IMG/VR virus record: IMGVR_UViG_3300025892_001566
Coordinates: 1 to 32,029 of that record
Reading direction: 5' to 3' (one strand)
DNA length: 32,029 bases
Source of the DNA: a virus
The notes beneath the pieces were generated by a model. That model ran no database searches. It was not told the DNA's origin and worked only from the letters and a program-made list of their open reading frames with translations. Of this stretch, positions 5,473-29,898 are shown in pieces (the first letter of the stretch is position 1; each line of letters opens with the position of its first letter). Position numbers and translations under genes: made by a program.

Positions 5473-6287
5473 AAAAACTAATCTATCAATATTATTTGAT
5501 GGACGACAACACACGACCATTGTCGCTCTGGGCGCAGTGGGGGCAGTGGTCAGTAAAGAAGTATGCCGAGAAGTATGGATGGGACTATGAGTTTAGTCAG
5601 ACACCTTGGCACACTGAAGGACCAGATACGTTTATTAATCCTTCGGATGGTGTACCCCCCGCGTGTCGTTGGTTTGATATTAGTCGTGTGTGGGAAGATC
5701 CGTATTTTGATCAATGGGATCAAGTATTATTTTTAGATCTAGACATTGTTATTCATCCACGATCACCTGATATATCGTTAATTAATCCGAGACATGTTGC
5801 TGGTTGGATTGAATGTGTTCCACCAGGAGCCAACGGTGGACCTAGTTATGATCGCCCGGGTAAACATGCCGATATATTAGCGAATGCCATGGAGTACATA
5901 GGTTCGCCGCATCCATATCCAGTATTTGAAGCAACCGGTGTTACACGAATATGTAATAGTGGTGTGCTATTGTGGTCAAAAGAAGCCCGTCTGATTGCAC
6001 GAGAAAAGTTTGGCACAGAGTATTGGAAATGGTGGGGTATGAGAGAGACTCACGATTACCCTCGTTGGTTGTGCTTAGATCAAATCTATGTGAGTGCTAT
6101 GATGAACAAGTATGGCTTGGATCTTGTTGAGTTAAATTGGAAATGGAATTCTTGTCCAACTAACTGGAATAAACTACCACAACCTGCATCATATTTCTAT
6201 CACTTCAGTAATGAACGCAAAAAAATGGTGGACACGTGGTGCAAACAAACGTGGGGTGACGATCACGATTTTGTTCCGTATAAATAG
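5469..6287 (+). CDS. GT-A fold glycosyltransferase (GT8-like)
   Basis: 272 aa. Begins MKKLIYQYYLMDD, and the gene at 19802 starts in almost the same way, so the two are probably distant paralogs. The metal- and sugar-nucleotide-binding motif is FLDLDIVIHP (about residues 92-101). A conserved CNSGVLLWSKE segment then matches the NSGV/LxN region of GT8-type enzymes, and LCLDQIYVSAM supplies the usual D-Q acidic site. No membrane segment. It sits apart from the main glycan island, among late genes, so it might glycosylate a virion or surface protein. Donor and acceptor are unknown. Confidence 0.72.
   Translation: MKKLIYQYYLMDDNTRPLSLWAQWGQWSVKKYAEKYGWDYEFSQTPWHTEGPDTFINPSDGVPPACRWFDISRVWEDPYFDQWDQVLFLDLDIVIHPRSPDISLINPRHVAGWIECVPPGANGGPSYDRPGKHADILANAMEYIGSPHPYPVFEATGVTRICNSGVLLWSKEARLIAREKFGTEYWKWWGMRETHDYPRWLCLDQIYVSAMMNKYGLDLVELNWKWNSCPTNWNKLPQPASYFYHFSNERKKMVDTWCKQTWGDDHDFVPYK
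6279..6286 (+). promoter_or_regulatory. T4-type late promoter (TATAAATA)
   Basis: Second exact TATAAATA box. It overlaps the last codons and stop of the glycosyltransferase and lies 25 bases before the GTG of the next gene, with AGAGGA as ribosome site in between. Position and exact match support a gp55-type late promoter for the 6311-8835 block, which contains the spanins as expected for late genes. Confidence 0.65.
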
Positions 6288-6310: not shown

Positions 6311-6892
6311 GTGTCATTAGCAAATAGAGCGGGCGATTTATATTTTACGTTTAGATTTTTAAAGTTGTTGACCACGCCATGGATTGATACTGAGGCGTAC
6401 AAACTGGGTCTTATAGATGACAACGGCAAGAGACTAAAGAGTAAGAAAATACAATCGTCCGAAGAAAAAGATGCTTACACATCATTCATGAGAGTGGTGT
6501 TTAACATGAAGAGGCTGATTCAAAAACTGCCTGGTGGTAGTAATAAGATCGCATCATATGCTTCTGCTCTGCTGTTGATCCGCGAAGAGATGGGTGTCAC
6601 GGACAAGGGCATAGAAAAACTAGTCAAAGAAATGGATCTAGATCCCGCAGATTTTATTAGCGAACGCAATGAGTGGTACGTTCTAGAGGACAAACGACTT
6701 TCGCCTGGCATGTACATAGTTAAGGAAGAGAAGTTAACCAAGCAGTTCAATGAAGTCTATGCTAAAGATAAAATAAGAGTTCCCGAAGAATCATATCCTA
6801 TAGGTAACATATTTGGGTTGGATGTGTACGAGGTAACACACATCAATACTAATCAACCCGTTCTTATTACACTCGGAGAAATCTACAAATGA
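6311..6892 (+). CDS. Conserved T4-like marine phage protein, possibly virion-associated
   Basis: 193 aa with a GTG start; AGAGGA lies about 10 bases upstream. The N-terminus ANRAGDLYFTFRFLKLLTTPW, then a segment with LGLIDDNGKRLK, and FMRVVFNMKRLIQKLPGG match a family I recall throughout marine T4-like phages, annotated as hypothetical or structural. The C-terminal half ends IGNIFGLDVYEVTHINTNQP, a small beta region. The exact late promoter in front suggests late expression, consistent with a structural or assembly role, but this is inferred. It ends in an ATGA overlap with the 54-aa peptide. Confidence 0.62.
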   Translation: MSLANRAGDLYFTFRFLKLLTTPWIDTEAYKLGLIDDNGKRLKSKKIQSSEEKDAYTSFMRVVFNMKRLIQKLPGGSNKIASYASALLLIREEMGVTDKGIEKLVKEMDLDPADFISERNEWYVLEDKRLSPGMYIVKEEKLTKQFNEVYAKDKIRVPEESYPIGNIFGLDVYEVTHINTNQPVLITLGEIYK

Positions 6893-7053
6893 AAACTTTC
6901 AAGCAAATGTTTGATGAGGAAATGATGACCACTGGTGATGCTGGTATTCCTCAAGACACCAAGGACATGGGACCAAAAAAGAAAAAGAAATATTCGGTCT
7001 TAACTCGCAACTACATAGAAGTCAATGGTAAAAGAAAAAAGCAATTTAAATAA
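6889..7053 (+). CDS. 54-aa basic peptide with capsid-targeting-like N-terminus
   Basis: The first ten residues MKTFKQMFDE resemble the T4 internal-protein capsid-targeting sequence (MKTYQEFIAE, from memory). The remainder is Lys-rich (PKKKKKY) and ends KRKKQFK. A short basic peptide of this kind could be packaged with DNA or be a small internal head protein. The cleavage site is imperfect, since residue 8 is Phe rather than Leu or Ile. It overlaps its upstream neighbour by four bases and shares TAATG with iscU, under the same late promoter. Existence as a gene is supported by tight coupling on both sides. Confidence 0.6.
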   Translation: MKTFKQMFDEEMMTTGDAGIPQDTKDMGPKKKKKYSVLTRNYIEVNGKRKKQFK

Positions 7054-7433
7054 TGGCATATTCAGATAAGGTGATGGACCACTACGAGAATCCTCGTAAT
7101 GTGGGAAGACTAGATAAAGAAGCAGAGGATGTGGGCACTGGCATGGTCGGTGCTCCTGCTTGTGGTGATGTAATGCAGTTGCAGATTAAAGTAAACGACG
7201 AAGGAGTTATTGAAGATGCTAAGTTCAAAACCTACGGATGTGGAAGCGCAATTGCTTCATCAAGTTTACTTACTGAGTGGGTTAAGGGAAGAACCTTGGA
7301 TGATGCTTCTGCTATTAGGAACACTGATATTGCCAATGAATTAGCCTTACCGCCCGTTAAAATCCATTGTAGTGTCTTGGCTGAAGACGCAATCAAAGCG
7401 GCAGTAAACGATTATAGGATGAAACATGTTTAA
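7053..7433 (+). CDS. iscU: Fe-S cluster assembly scaffold IscU
   Basis: 126 aa, full length compared with about 128 aa for E. coli IscU and alignable end to end by eye. All functional residues are present: Cys37 in ACGD with Asp39, Cys63 in YGCGSAIAS, the HscA-binding LPPVK at 99-103, His105 and Cys106. IscU receives sulfur from IscS and iron, builds a [2Fe-2S] cluster and passes it on with HscA/HscB. No iscS, iscA, hscA or hscB is in the window, so host partners are presumably used. It lies in a late block between a 54-aa peptide and the spanins. The intact motif set argues for a functional protein acquired from a proteobacterium-like source. Confidence 0.95.
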   Translation: MAYSDKVMDHYENPRNVGRLDKEAEDVGTGMVGAPACGDVMQLQIKVNDEGVIEDAKFKTYGCGSAIASSSLLTEWVKGRTLDDASAIRNTDIANELALPPVKIHCSVLAEDAIKAAVNDYRMKHV

Positions 7434-10975: not shown

Positions 10976-11395
10976 ATGAGCGAAGAATGGTATTACAATG
11001 GTAAGCCCTATGAACCCACCGAAGAGGAATTAAACTCTTTGGTGGGTTTTGTGTATGAGATAGAAGAAAAGAACACAGGTAAAAAATACATTGGTAAGAA
11101 AGGCTTTTGGCGATCAAAGATACTTCCTGTCACGAAAACGCGCAAGAGACGGAGGAGGACGCTCGTGGAGAGCGATTGGCGTAAATACTATGGTAGTAGT
11201 GCTCTTTTAAAAGAAATGGTAATTGAACACGGCGAACATATATATAATAGAGTGATTTTAAAATTGTGCATCAGTAAAGGGGCGATGTCCTATTACGAAG
11301 CCAAATTGCAGTTTGAGAACGATGTCTTACTGAGAGACGATTATTACAACGAATTTATTGGATGTAAAATTCACAGCAAACATGTTAAACTTTAA
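10976..11395 (+). CDS. GIY-YIG-like endonuclease, SegA-like
   Basis: 139 aa from ATG 10976; the longer frame starts upstream inside the zinc-ribbon gene and is less likely. VGFVYEIEEKNTGKKYIGKK supplies the paired G-[FI]-[YV] and YIG elements of the GIY-YIG fold. Then come a basic Lys/Arg patch (TRKRRRR), SDWRKYYGSS, and YYEAKLQFENDVLL with a candidate catalytic Glu. I recall this family in marine T4-like phages as putative homing or Seg-type nucleases. It cleaves DNA, but whether as a mobile element or in genome processing is not clear. Confidence 0.7.
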   Translation: MSEEWYYNGKPYEPTEEELNSLVGFVYEIEEKNTGKKYIGKKGFWRSKILPVTKTRKRRRRTLVESDWRKYYGSSALLKEMVIEHGEHIYNRVILKLCISKGAMSYYEAKLQFENDVLLRDDYYNEFIGCKIHSKHVKL

Positions 11396-12065
11396 ACAAT
11401 ATCTCAACGAAGGGATCAATGATCCCGCCATCTTCAAAGCAATCTTTCTTGCTGGTGGCCCTGGCTCTGGTAAGTCATTCATCGTAGGAAAGACTGGTTT
11501 GCCCGCCCTTGGTTATCGTGTTGTCAATTCAGATGACTCATTCGAACTCGCCATGCAGAAAGCAGGGCTTATACCCATGACACCCGAAAAGATCTTCTCT
11601 GTGAAAGGGCAAGAGATTCGTGGCAAAGCAAAAGCAATCACCGCAAAGAAGCAAGAGATCTTGATCAAAGGTCGCTTGGGTCTCACCATTGACGGTACTG
11701 GGCGTGACATTGACAAGTTGAAACGTCAAGCAAAAGAACTCAAGAAGTTCGGTTACGATGTCGCGATGATCTTCGTAAACACCGACAAAGAAACAGCACT
11801 CGCACGTAATCGTGCACGAGCAAGACAATTACCTGATGAAGAGGTCGCACGTATGTGGGAGACCATTCAAAAGAACATTGGTGCGTTTCAAACAATCTTT
11901 GGTAAGAAGAATTTCCTTGTTGTTGATAACAGTGACGGTAAGGATTTTACGAAAGAGACGTTACGTGCTTATCGTGACGCAACTAAATTCACCAATGCGC
12001 CTGCAAATAACCCTAAAGCGGTGAAGTGGATTGCAGACGAAAAGAAGAGACGTGGTATAAAATAG
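11382..12065 (+). CDS. P-loop kinase (zeta-toxin/polynucleotide-kinase-like) with capsid-targeting-like N-terminus
   Basis: 227 aa from ATG 11382. A TTG eight codons earlier is possible, but starting at MLNFKQYLNEG gives a clear N-terminal motif. Walker A is GGPGSGKS (25-32). VVNSDDSFE follows, then DGTGRD and a LARNRAR segment that fits the arginine-bearing lid of zeta-toxin/AAA_33 kinases. These phosphorylate nucleotide-sugars, nucleic acids or small molecules. Residues 1-11 align without gaps to the T4 internal-protein targeting peptide, including L-N-E before Gly where a gp21-type protease would cut, so the kinase may be packaged in the head and injected. The start overlaps the nuclease gene by 14 bases. 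Confidence 0.75.
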   Translation: MLNFKQYLNEGINDPAIFKAIFLAGGPGSGKSFIVGKTGLPALGYRVVNSDDSFELAMQKAGLIPMTPEKIFSVKGQEIRGKAKAITAKKQEILIKGRLGLTIDGTGRDIDKLKRQAKELKKFGYDVAMIFVNTDKETALARNRARARQLPDEEVARMWETIQKNIGAFQTIFGKKNFLVVDNSDGKDFTKETLRAYRDATKFTNAPANNPKAVKWIADEKKRRGIK

Positions 12066-23720: not shown

Positions 23721-24088
23721 ACATAGAAATACCCACCTCAGTAGGTGATCTCATTGATAGAGTCACCATTCTTTCAATCAAAAGCATTCGCATACCAAAC
23801 AGTGATGACACTGAATATGAAGAACTGAATGCTATTTTAGGTTCACTACCACTGTCCAATTGTGTGATGCATCACCAATATATTCTACTCGCTATCAACC
23901 AAGAGATATGGGAGGTTGAAGATTTCAATAGGCAGTGTGAGAGAGATCAAGAGTTTGGTGCATCTTTCATTGACAACGCAAGATCAGTCTACATGCTGAA
24001 CGATCTTCGTGCACAGGTGAAGCGAACAATCAATAAGATGAGTGGTTCGGCGCTCACTGAATACAAGAGTCACGGAGACTACTCATGA
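23717..24088 (+). CDS. DUF6165 family protein
   Basis: 123 aa. VGDLIDRVTILSIKSIRI and EYEELNAILG match the start of DUF6165 proteins ([GS]-[ED]-[LV]-[IV]-D-[KR]-[VI]-T-I-L, from memory), and the end is LNDLRAQVKRTINKMSGS. The family commonly sits beside glycosyltransferases in surface-sugar clusters; its function is not known to me. Here it lies between a GT25 gene and gmd, with four-base overlaps. Confidence 0.7.
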   Translation: MNIEIPTSVGDLIDRVTILSIKSIRIPNSDDTEYEELNAILGSLPLSNCVMHHQYILLAINQEIWEVEDFNRQCERDQEFGASFIDNARSVYMLNDLRAQVKRTINKMSGSALTEYKSHGDYS

Positions 24089-25050
24089 AAAGAGCAATGA
24101 TAACAGGCATATATGGTCAAGACGGAGCGTATCTTGCCAAACTTCTAGTCGAAAAAGGATATGAGGTCTACGGCGTATCTTCACGGCGTGTCAATCAATC
24201 AACGTCCAATCTAGACTGGCTCGGTGTTACTGGTATCAATTTTGTAAACGCTGATATGACAGACCAGACCAGTCTACAAAATGTAATCAAATCAATTCGA
24301 CCCGATGAGTTCTATAATTTAGCCGCTATGAGTTTTGTGGGTAGCAGTTGGGACACACCGGTGTACACTTCGAATGTCAACGCTATGGGCGTGTTGTATG
24401 TGCTAGAAGCGATTAAAAATTATGCACCGCACTGCAAGGTCTATCAAGCCAGCACTAGTGAGATGTTCGGCAATTGCGGTGGTTTTCTTCCTAAGAATGA
24501 AGAAACTAATTTTGTGCCTCGGTCACCGTACGGAGTTGCGAAAACATTTGCTCACAATATGATGGTAAACTATCGTGAGAGTTACGGCATGTTTGCCGCT
24601 AATGGTATTCTCTTTAATCACGAGAGTCCTATTCGTGGGTTAGAGTTTGTCACACGAAAGATCACTGACGGTGTGGCTAAGATCTCACTGGGTTTGCAAG
24701 ACACCATATCGTTGGGCAATCTAGACTCTAAGCGAGATTGGGGTTTCAGTGGTGATTATGTGAAAGCCATGCACGCCATGCTTCAAGCAGATGAGCCTGA
24801 TGATTTTGTGATCGCAACAGGAAAGACATATACGATTCGTGACTTTCTAGATCTTGCTTTCATGGAGGTAGGTATTGAGGACTGGAGTAAACACGTATAT
24901 CAAGATCCCGCATTTATTAGACCCGCGGAGTTAGATGTGTTGCTGGGTGATTCTACTAAAGCCAAGTTTGTTCTTGGATGGGAACCAGAAGTACCTATCG
25001 GTGGACTTGTTGCGATGATGGTGGAGGCTGACATTGAGCGAAACTCATGA
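24085..25050 (+). CDS. gmd: GDP-mannose 4,6-dehydratase
   Basis: 321 aa, normal length. Converts GDP-mannose to GDP-4-keto-6-deoxymannose with bound NADP. TGIYGQDGAYLAKLL is the Gly-rich cofactor loop; QASTSEMFG provides the catalytic Thr/Ser and Glu; SPYGVAK is the Y-x-x-x-K pair. NGILFNHESPIRG then VTRKIT is strongly specific for GMD, as is KRDWGFSGDYVKAM. No GDP-fucose synthase (fcl) or rmd reductase is in the window, so the host or another part of the genome must use the keto sugar. It overlaps the cupin gene by 17 bases. Confidence 0.95.
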   Translation: MKRAMITGIYGQDGAYLAKLLVEKGYEVYGVSSRRVNQSTSNLDWLGVTGINFVNADMTDQTSLQNVIKSIRPDEFYNLAAMSFVGSSWDTPVYTSNVNAMGVLYVLEAIKNYAPHCKVYQASTSEMFGNCGGFLPKNEETNFVPRSPYGVAKTFAHNMMVNYRESYGMFAANGILFNHESPIRGLEFVTRKITDGVAKISLGLQDTISLGNLDSKRDWGFSGDYVKAMHAMLQADEPDDFVIATGKTYTIRDFLDLAFMEVGIEDWSKHVYQDPAFIRPAELDVLLGDSTKAKFVLGWEPEVPIGGLVAMMVEADIERNS

Positions 25051-28450: not shown

Positions 28451-29405
28451 GTATCCTGTATACATTATTAGTAAGGGTAGACATGAATCAATGTACACCT
28501 CTAGATCACTTGCTAGGATGCACGTGCCTCATTACATTGCTATTGAGCCACAAGATGAAGCAAACTATGAGGCTTGCTTAGATACGTTTGGTATTCGTGA
28601 GTATGTGACGCTATTGATTGCACCATTCAGCAATCATGGTGATGGTCCTGGTCGTGCTAGAAACTGGTGCTGGGATCATTCTATGGCTATGGGTGCTAAA
28701 CGTCACTGGGTCATGGATGATAACATCACCGACTTCTATAGACTCCATGAGAATGTCCGCATTCGTGTTGGTTCTGGTGTATGTTTCAAGATCATGGAAG
28801 ACTTTGTAGATCGGTACAAGAACGTCAAGATTGCTGGACCACAGTATCGTTTCTTTTGTGCGCCTAATCAGAAGTATCCACCATATGTGAAGAACACTCG
28901 GATCTATTCTTGTCTGTTGATTGAGAATGACTGTAAGCACCGCTGGCGTGGTCGATACAATGAAGATACTGATATCTGCTTGAACGTATTGAAAGACGGT
29001 GACTGTACTGTTCAGTTCAACGCATTCCTTCAAGGTAAAGGTGCTACTCAAACACTCAAGGGTGGTAACACTGAAGAGTTTTATCACAAAGAGATTGGTT
29101 ATGATGCCGAGACTGGTGAAGCGATTCAAGCAGATGAAACTCTAGAGGTAAAAGACCGATACAATGTGGCAGGTACTGTGGCTAAATCTCAGATGCTTGT
29201 TGATATGCATCCTGATGTAGCAAAGATGGTGTTTCGATATGGACGTTGGCATCACCATGTAAACTATGAGCCGTTTAAGAAACTGCCATTAAAGTATACC
29301 GACGGTATAGATATACCTAAGGGCGTAAACAATTACGGCATGAGACTAATCAAAAACTGGAATTCAGATGAGCAATATCAGAGACGCGACCAAGACATTG
29401 CATGA
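28437..29405 (+). CDS. TET/JBP-associated glycosyltransferase (TAGT-like), DNA hypermodification
   Basis: 322 aa. PVYIISKGRHESMYTSRSLA, then VPHYIAIEPQDEANYEA, then GPGRARNWCWDHS and HWVMDDNITDF with the D-D-N metal site at 94-96 form the ordered motif set I associate with the TAGT family of phage GT-A enzymes. That family adds sugars to 5-hydroxymethyl- or similar bases made by TET/JBP dioxygenases, protecting DNA from host nucleases. RGRYNEDTDICLNVLKDG carries the E-D-x-D step. No TET/JBP or 5mC methyltransferase gene is in the window, so the base-modifying partner must lie elsewhere. Family call from memory, not a search. Confidence 0.7.
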   Translation: MTNPKYPVYIISKGRHESMYTSRSLARMHVPHYIAIEPQDEANYEACLDTFGIREYVTLLIAPFSNHGDGPGRARNWCWDHSMAMGAKRHWVMDDNITDFYRLHENVRIRVGSGVCFKIMEDFVDRYKNVKIAGPQYRFFCAPNQKYPPYVKNTRIYSCLLIENDCKHRWRGRYNEDTDICLNVLKDGDCTVQFNAFLQGKGATQTLKGGNTEEFYHKEIGYDAETGEAIQADETLEVKDRYNVAGTVAKSQMLVDMHPDVAKMVFRYGRWHHHVNYEPFKKLPLKYTDGIDIPKGVNNYGMRLIKNWNSDEQYQRRDQDIA

Positions 29406-29898
29406 CAGGCTTGAAGCCTTACCTTTTAACAAGAGAATGTTTGAAGGTAATCAAACGAACGCCGAACGAGCGACATACCTTTGTTCTAATTTGGAAATCT
29501 TTGAAGTGTTAGATCCTCACGTTCCCGAAGACATGAGACGTAGCCATCTAATAGAAGAAGACATAGGCAAACTTGCCGAAGCCTTTGCAGACGCCCCTTC
29601 GACCACGTTTGCTTATAGGACATATCTAGAAAGAGTATGTGACGATTTAAGACCGCACATTTATCTTAACTATATGGGATTCATGTTCGGTGGTCAGATA
29701 ATGAAGAAACGATATCCTCTAGCCGCTTCAATGTATGAGTTTGATGACATTGAAGGCAAGCGTGAATACATTCGTGAACGAGTCTGTGAAGGATATAATT
29801 CTCCTCACTGGAGAGGGTTTGTAGATGAGGTCAAGATTGGGTTTAAATGGCATATAGGTATTTCAAAAGAACTAGGCACATACTTTAATGTGGAATAA
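29368..29898 (+). CDS. ho: Heme oxygenase
   Basis: 176 aa, on the short side (typical about 190-240). Opens heme to biliverdin, CO and iron. The proximal heme-binding His12 lies in ATKTLHDRLEALPFN, the right position for the family. The distal helix YLNYMGFMFGGQIMKKRYP has the flexible Gly-rich segment over heme. The end (WHIGISKELGTYF) resembles the last helix. Start ATG 29368 overlaps the TAGT-like gene by 38 bases. It directly precedes a bilin reductase, so the biliverdin is presumably passed on. Confidence 0.85.
   Translation: MSNIRDATKTLHDRLEALPFNKRMFEGNQTNAERATYLCSNLEIFEVLDPHVPEDMRRSHLIEEDIGKLAEAFADAPSTTFAYRTYLERVCDDLRPHIYLNYMGFMFGGQIMKKRYPLAASMYEFDDIEGKREYIRERVCEGYNSPHWRGFVDEVKIGFKWHIGISKELGTYFNVE

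Follow-up and report, generated by a model that had tools for sequence, protein, structure and literature searches.

In bacteriophage T4 the internal proteins IPI, IPII and IPIII are marked by a ten-residue N-terminal tag, with aromatic residues at positions 4 and 7, Leu or Ile at position 8, Glu at position 10 and a small residue next to it. Residues 4 and 7 determine the targeting to the head and residues 8 and 10 the processing (PMC9026906), which is performed by the gp21 protease cutting after L/I-x-E, and leaders of this kind are cut in T4 (PMC9026906). The internal proteins are small inhibitors of GmrSD restriction enzymes (PMC12373910), and the recognition of such proteins by means of their signal is established for the T-even phages (PMC12373910); among the papers found for the term 'capsid targeting sequence', judged by title and abstract, there was none on marine phages. 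T4 also packages its ADP-ribosyltransferase Alt along with the DNA; gp21 processes this enzyme, which is injected as well (PMC9026906). In the cyanophage papers enzymes were described in virions, and it was asked whether these are cargo or contamination; the leader is not mentioned in the sections of the virion papers that were consulted.

The locus described here lies in a window of 32,029 nucleotides, the whole stretch of DNA that was analysed (IMG/VR virus record IMGVR_UViG_3300025892_001566), where a P-loop kinase of 227 amino acids (11382..12065, + strand), recognized by Pfam, by its relatives and by an AlphaFold model, carries a leader of the T4 type. The tag has the same architecture as that of the T4 internal proteins and gp21 is present in relatives, but the proposed cargo is a P-loop kinase instead of a small inhibitor. 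The route proposed for it has its counterpart in Alt, the fold of which is unrelated. The cyanophage protein T4-GC190, which was found in virions, has the leader in common with the kinase, shares its gene neighbourhood in relatives and is sometimes fused to it, but is a different enzyme. The delivery system is already known and the cargo is new: what is novel is a cargo of this kinase family, the recognition of the tag in marine phages of the Kyanoviridae type, where virion data stand behind it, and the polyprotein arrangement. We propose, with a probability of about 0.78, that the kinase is a virion cargo, the leader of which is bound to the scaffold and cut by gp21, and that it is injected.

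The kinase gene and its leader

The kinase ORF opens with MLNFKQYLNEGINDPAIFKAIFLAGGPGSGKS, its ATG being at 11382, and residues 1-11 read MLNFKQYLNEG. In the leader (MLNFKQYLNE, codons 1-10, 11382..11411, +) the aromatics F4 and Y7 match the T4 targeting positions, and L8, E10 (11409-11411) and the small residue G11 (11412-11414) match those of a gp21 site, the predicted cut L-N-E/G falling between codons 10 and 11 (11409..11414, +). The initial annotation had noted the residues at 4, 8, 10 and 11 (11382-11414) by comparison with the T4 leader MKTYQEFIAEA; these residues are present, and in the T4 record both ipII and ipIII do read MKTYQEFIAEA.

The kinase is preceded by a SegE-like GIY-YIG endonuclease ORF (10979..11395, +; Pfam SegE_GIY-YIG 6.2e-34), the end of which overlaps the kinase start by 14 nt; DUF6433 is the other neighbour and a ribonucleotide reductase is encoded upstream. 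Downstream of 11382 no further in-frame ATG, GTG or TTG precedes the Walker A motif, and the sole nearby alternative start is the TTG at 11358; consequently any P-loop product has to begin with the leader or ahead of it. In the AlphaFold model (pLDDT 84.6) residues 1-9 fall below 50, i.e. they are disordered, and the kinase fold follows thereafter.

Since only about five positions of the leader are constrained, coincidence had to be considered, and the core pattern [FYW]xx[FYWH][LIMVF]xE was scored against its frequency at internal protein positions (2.6e-4 per position). The N-terminal matches were in excess throughout: in the window 1 was seen where 0.033 were expected, in 13 phage records 27 where 0.89 were expected (20 and 0.75 when T4 and the kinase orthologues were left out), and in C48C1 5 where 0.045 were expected, which is a large excess even within a single genome, although p-values for this excess are overstated because orthologues across genomes are not independent. 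Chance was ruled out by these counts, leaving it practically no weight; the resemblance of the kinase leader to the T4 tag is not accidental. The initial annotation had suggested a scan for further proteins with the same start: leader-bearing genes were indeed found in relatives, and within the window the kinase gave the one match to the core pattern, accompanied by a leader-like ORF at 6889..7053.

T4 served as control, where the pattern recovered ipII, ipIII and the uncharacterised gp61.1. This last product (gene 61.1, NC_000866 18966-19130, locus L281; 54 aa, hypothetical) begins with MKTFKEFIKED, a full capsid-targeting pattern, which makes it a possible addition to the internal proteins of T4.

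Conservation of the leader and of the predicted cut site

The kinase has more than 500 viral relatives, and the marine T4-like phages that make it are of an abundant kind. About 150 viral loci were collected in two IMG/VR scans, the first with a leader-derived pattern and the second without any, and the picture agreed; 17 further loci came from one genome-contig scan. Of 85 distinct leaders of free-standing kinases, 68 have Phe at position 4; two residues ahead of the Glu, every one of the 85 has a hydrophobic residue, which is Leu or Ile in 76. A pattern in which F4, E10 and G11 were fixed beforehand yielded 47 distinct leader DNAs of 11 codons, and in these position 8 is only L, I or M and position 7 only F, Y or H, positions 2, 3, 5, 6 and 9 being free to vary. 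Shorter leaders in HTVC008M (MIPFILKEG) and Melnitz (MKTFAELQEG) retain both F4 and L-x-E/G. Homologues lacking the leader, which according to the initial annotation would speak against it, do exist in part: some kinases are internal domains of larger proteins, and among the free-standing ones a few carry a short or altered leader.

The kinase might also be packaged and remain uncut, the leader binding the scaffold only and the E-G pair belonging to the kinase domain. E10 and G11 are invariant in 30/30 aligned kinases, the internally fused ones included, therefore E-G alone is no proof of a cut site, and at the fused junctions Val dominates two residues before the Glu (9/16). However, Leu or Ile at this position, as gp21 requires, is enriched in the free leaders (76/85 against 7/16 at fused junctions, Fisher p=1.4e-4), and T4 leaders of like kind are cut, which makes the uncut form rather unlikely. 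Judged from these sequences, cleavage by gp21 at E10/G11 is likely. The search for a gp21 homologue, suggested earlier, succeeded in the relatives (G006, G007, G009, G010, G012, HTVC008M, Melnitz-3 and Atu_ph07), and none was found inside the 32-kb window fragment.

Leader-bearing proteins in published virions

The S-CREM2 virion proteome contains four regulatory or metabolic enzymes beyond structure and lysis (PMC10665884). Three of them bear the tag: the SAM hydrolase (MKDFDSFLEE), the cytidylyltransferase (MKNFSSFLTEA) and an APH/ChoK-like kinase (MKRFDAFLTEE), which resembles our kinase in its leader but is of another kinase family. The fourth, Cas9, has the variant LRFASFMAEA about 17 residues in. 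Strict leaders were found in 4/52 virion-detected against 0/167 undetected CDS of S-CREM2 (p=0.003), or 3 against 0 with a narrower position 8 (p=0.013), with the strict pattern fixed when some S-CREM2 proteins were already in view; and virion detection in CsCl preparations can, according to the authors, reflect carry-over (PMC10665884). The cytidylyltransferase/NMNAT-like protein (T4-GC190) detected in S-CREM2 virions (PMC10665884) has family members that were identified by mass spectrometry in the virions of S-SM1 (PMC3037559), S-SCSM1 (PMC9602691) and S-SZBM1 (PMC9146016), the starts of which are MKKFSAFLNEA, MKSFLQFLKEA and MRFRQFIIEA, respectively. In S-CREM2, S-SM1 and S-SCSM1 together 6/7 strict leaders belong to virion-detected proteins against a background of 18%, three of the six being orthologues; one of the two strict leaders of S-SCSM1 is without virion-protein annotation.

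The Cas9-like nuclease reported in S-CREM2 virions (OR473000.1 7704-10313, locus L134; leader-like LRFASFMAEA near the N-terminus) adjoins a small protein, gp13, with a leader-like MKDLHSFLTEQ. Packaging of a Cas9 in this phage would be remarkable, if true.

The same tag marks enzymes found by mass spectrometry in related cyanophage particles, for this reason it is very likely that the kinase, too, is packaged by means of its T4-like capsid-targeting sequence. These detections concern leader-bearing proteins other than the free-standing kinase; the nearest virion datum of the kinase itself is a kinase-domain protein of Atu_ph07, CDS 53 with accession AUZ94865.1, which lies inside the CDS 31-76 block holding 29 MS-identified virion proteins. 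The packaging predicted in the initial annotation thus gains comparative evidence and published virion data of related leader-bearing proteins, while the cut it predicted fits the gp21 rule but falls at an E-G pair which fused kinases share.

Timing of expression

The T4 late-promoter octamer TATAAATA shows a strong strand bias in the relatives. It lies within 80 nt of 18/46 kinase starts against 81/1101 genes (7%; p=6e-9, relatedness ignored), from which we infer that the kinase is a late gene in the closest relatives. No late octamer was found near the kinase upstream in the window, the nearest one being about 5 kb off (6279..6286, +). The position downstream of ribonucleotide reductase, the missing octamer of its own and the circumstance that the virion data belong to other leader-bearing proteins would suit an ordinary intracellular enzyme outside virions, the leader-like start being a relic or having another role. 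This is improbable, even more so than packaging with an uncut leader, since the leader persists over wide divergence, the octamer stands upstream of many relatives' kinases and virion-detected proteins bear an identical leader type.

Identity of the enzyme

The kinase matches Pfam Zeta_toxin (1.3e-11; 44.7 bits against a gathering score of 22.3) and AAA_33 (2.8e-10). Like Zeta and PezT it has the Zeta_toxin domain, the Walker A motif and a conserved Asp after strand 2; unlike them it has no antitoxin gene adjoining it in the window (SegE and DUF6433 being the neighbours), and it is apparently packaged and not a member of a toxin-antitoxin pair. In structural alignment of the model (VIA-align) L-seryl-tRNA(Sec) kinase (PSTK) reached Z 14.8, UMP/CMP kinase 13.7, bacterial Pnkp 13.5, zeta 12.5 and nucleotide kinases 12-13.7, differences too small for the fold to assign the kinase class. 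PADLOC gave weak, non-specific matches only. The toxin-antitoxin reading was rejected for want of an antitoxin neighbour, and the toxin label is unsupported: 'zeta-toxin-like', the earlier name, stands at the family level in Pfam, whereas PSTK and Pnkp resemble the fold at least as closely as zeta does.

The nucleotidyltransferase partner has a fold of the NMNAT/NadD/PPAT type, and its leader is disordered in the model as in that of the kinase; at the sequence level, neither DUF6267 nor the nucleotidyltransferase could be usefully matched with a solved structure. Together with the nearness of the kinase fold to PSTK and Pnkp, the NMNAT/PPAT type of the partner suggests that the substrate is most likely a nucleotide, a cofactor or RNA. 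A dephospho-CoA or nicotinamide-riboside kinase role, in a CoA- or NadR-like pairing, is possible and is not singled out by the fold.

Neighbouring genes and fusions

In gp21-carrying relatives genes with leaders form a cluster. In G010 the leaders are MMRFTRYLTES, MNTFQQFVTEQ (DUF6267), MINSFRNYLVEEE (nucleotidyltransferase) and MIGFKSYIAED (DUF5824), in G012 MENFKAHITES, MINSFRNFLVEEE, MRNFKSFLEEK and MIKFKEFLEEK, and the clusters of C48C1 and G006 resemble these. G006 and G007 have the gene order of the window, with about 73% nucleotide identity in 3.1 kb over the ribonucleotide reductase, SegE and kinase genes. Uncultured viruses supplied 86 loci of the nucleotidyltransferase, and the leader (aromatic-x-x-Y/F-L/I-x-Glu) is nearly universal among them; in L263, L272, L274 and L277 nucleotidyltransferase and kinase form a single fused protein. 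A KWDGAPA motif common to DUF6267 proteins (G012:C1:131465-132691) resembles a nucleotidyltransferase/ligase active-site motif and was present in 76/86 nucleotidyltransferase loci (fetched flanks up to 3 kb, some more).

A 1269-aa protein encoded at about 5475-9269 of L246 begins in the manner of the nucleotidyltransferase and contains four leader-like cores (FEMFLEE, FEAYLNE, FEAFITE and FESYLEE) as well as a kinase, which is directly preceded by FESYLEE; from its sequence it looks like a packaged polyprotein.

The leader-like ORF of the window (6889..7053, +; 54 aa, MKTFKQMFDE/EMMTTGDAGIP) aligns with T4 gp61.1, itself leader-bearing, and is identical in 20/23 residues to the C-terminal part of the fused kinase L065, so that a domain fused to the kinase in one phage stands in another as a separate protein that begins like a leader. 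A tblastn search of the phage collection gave no match to this ORF, its link to the kinase resting on the fused relatives.

It is conceivable, and we suggest it tentatively, that the heads of abundant marine T4-like phages carry a modular, leader-tagged enzyme kit, composed of the kinase, the nucleotidyltransferase of NMNAT/PPAT type, DUF6267 and small basic proteins. Part of the kit would consist of polyproteins, the domains of which are separated by leader-like cut sites, and once injected it would serve to repair or rebuild a cofactor or RNA ahead of phage gene expression.

Further features were recognized in the window. An IscU Fe-S scaffold homologue (7053-7433; TIGR01999 1.6e-68, above the NCBIfam equivalog cut-off) is unexpected in a phage, and 29368-29898 encodes a heme oxygenase homologue (Pfam 1e-8). 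A DUF285 (BspA-like) protein with FNQDISSWDVSSVTNM repeats (6-1181) is possibly a tail or adhesion protein. Many glycosyltransferase-like ORFs, a GDP-mannose 4,6-dehydratase (24085-25050) and two radical-SAM proteins lie in 5469-31476, by their sequences a surface-sugar or modification island.

Proposed mechanism and significance

In the proposed mechanism the first ten residues of the kinase would bind the prohead scaffold core, as those of the T4 internal proteins do, after which gp21 would cut L-N-E/G and leave in the head, together with the DNA, a kinase starting at Gly11. By analogy with T4, the kinase would enter the next host upon injection and may act there as an early effector, ahead of phage gene expression.

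The shared ten-residue tag offers a sequence-level answer to the question of cargo versus contamination raised for cyanophage virions. It allows the prediction of packaged effectors in uncultured marine phages, and it nominates the kinase and the nucleotidyltransferase as candidates for injected effectors.
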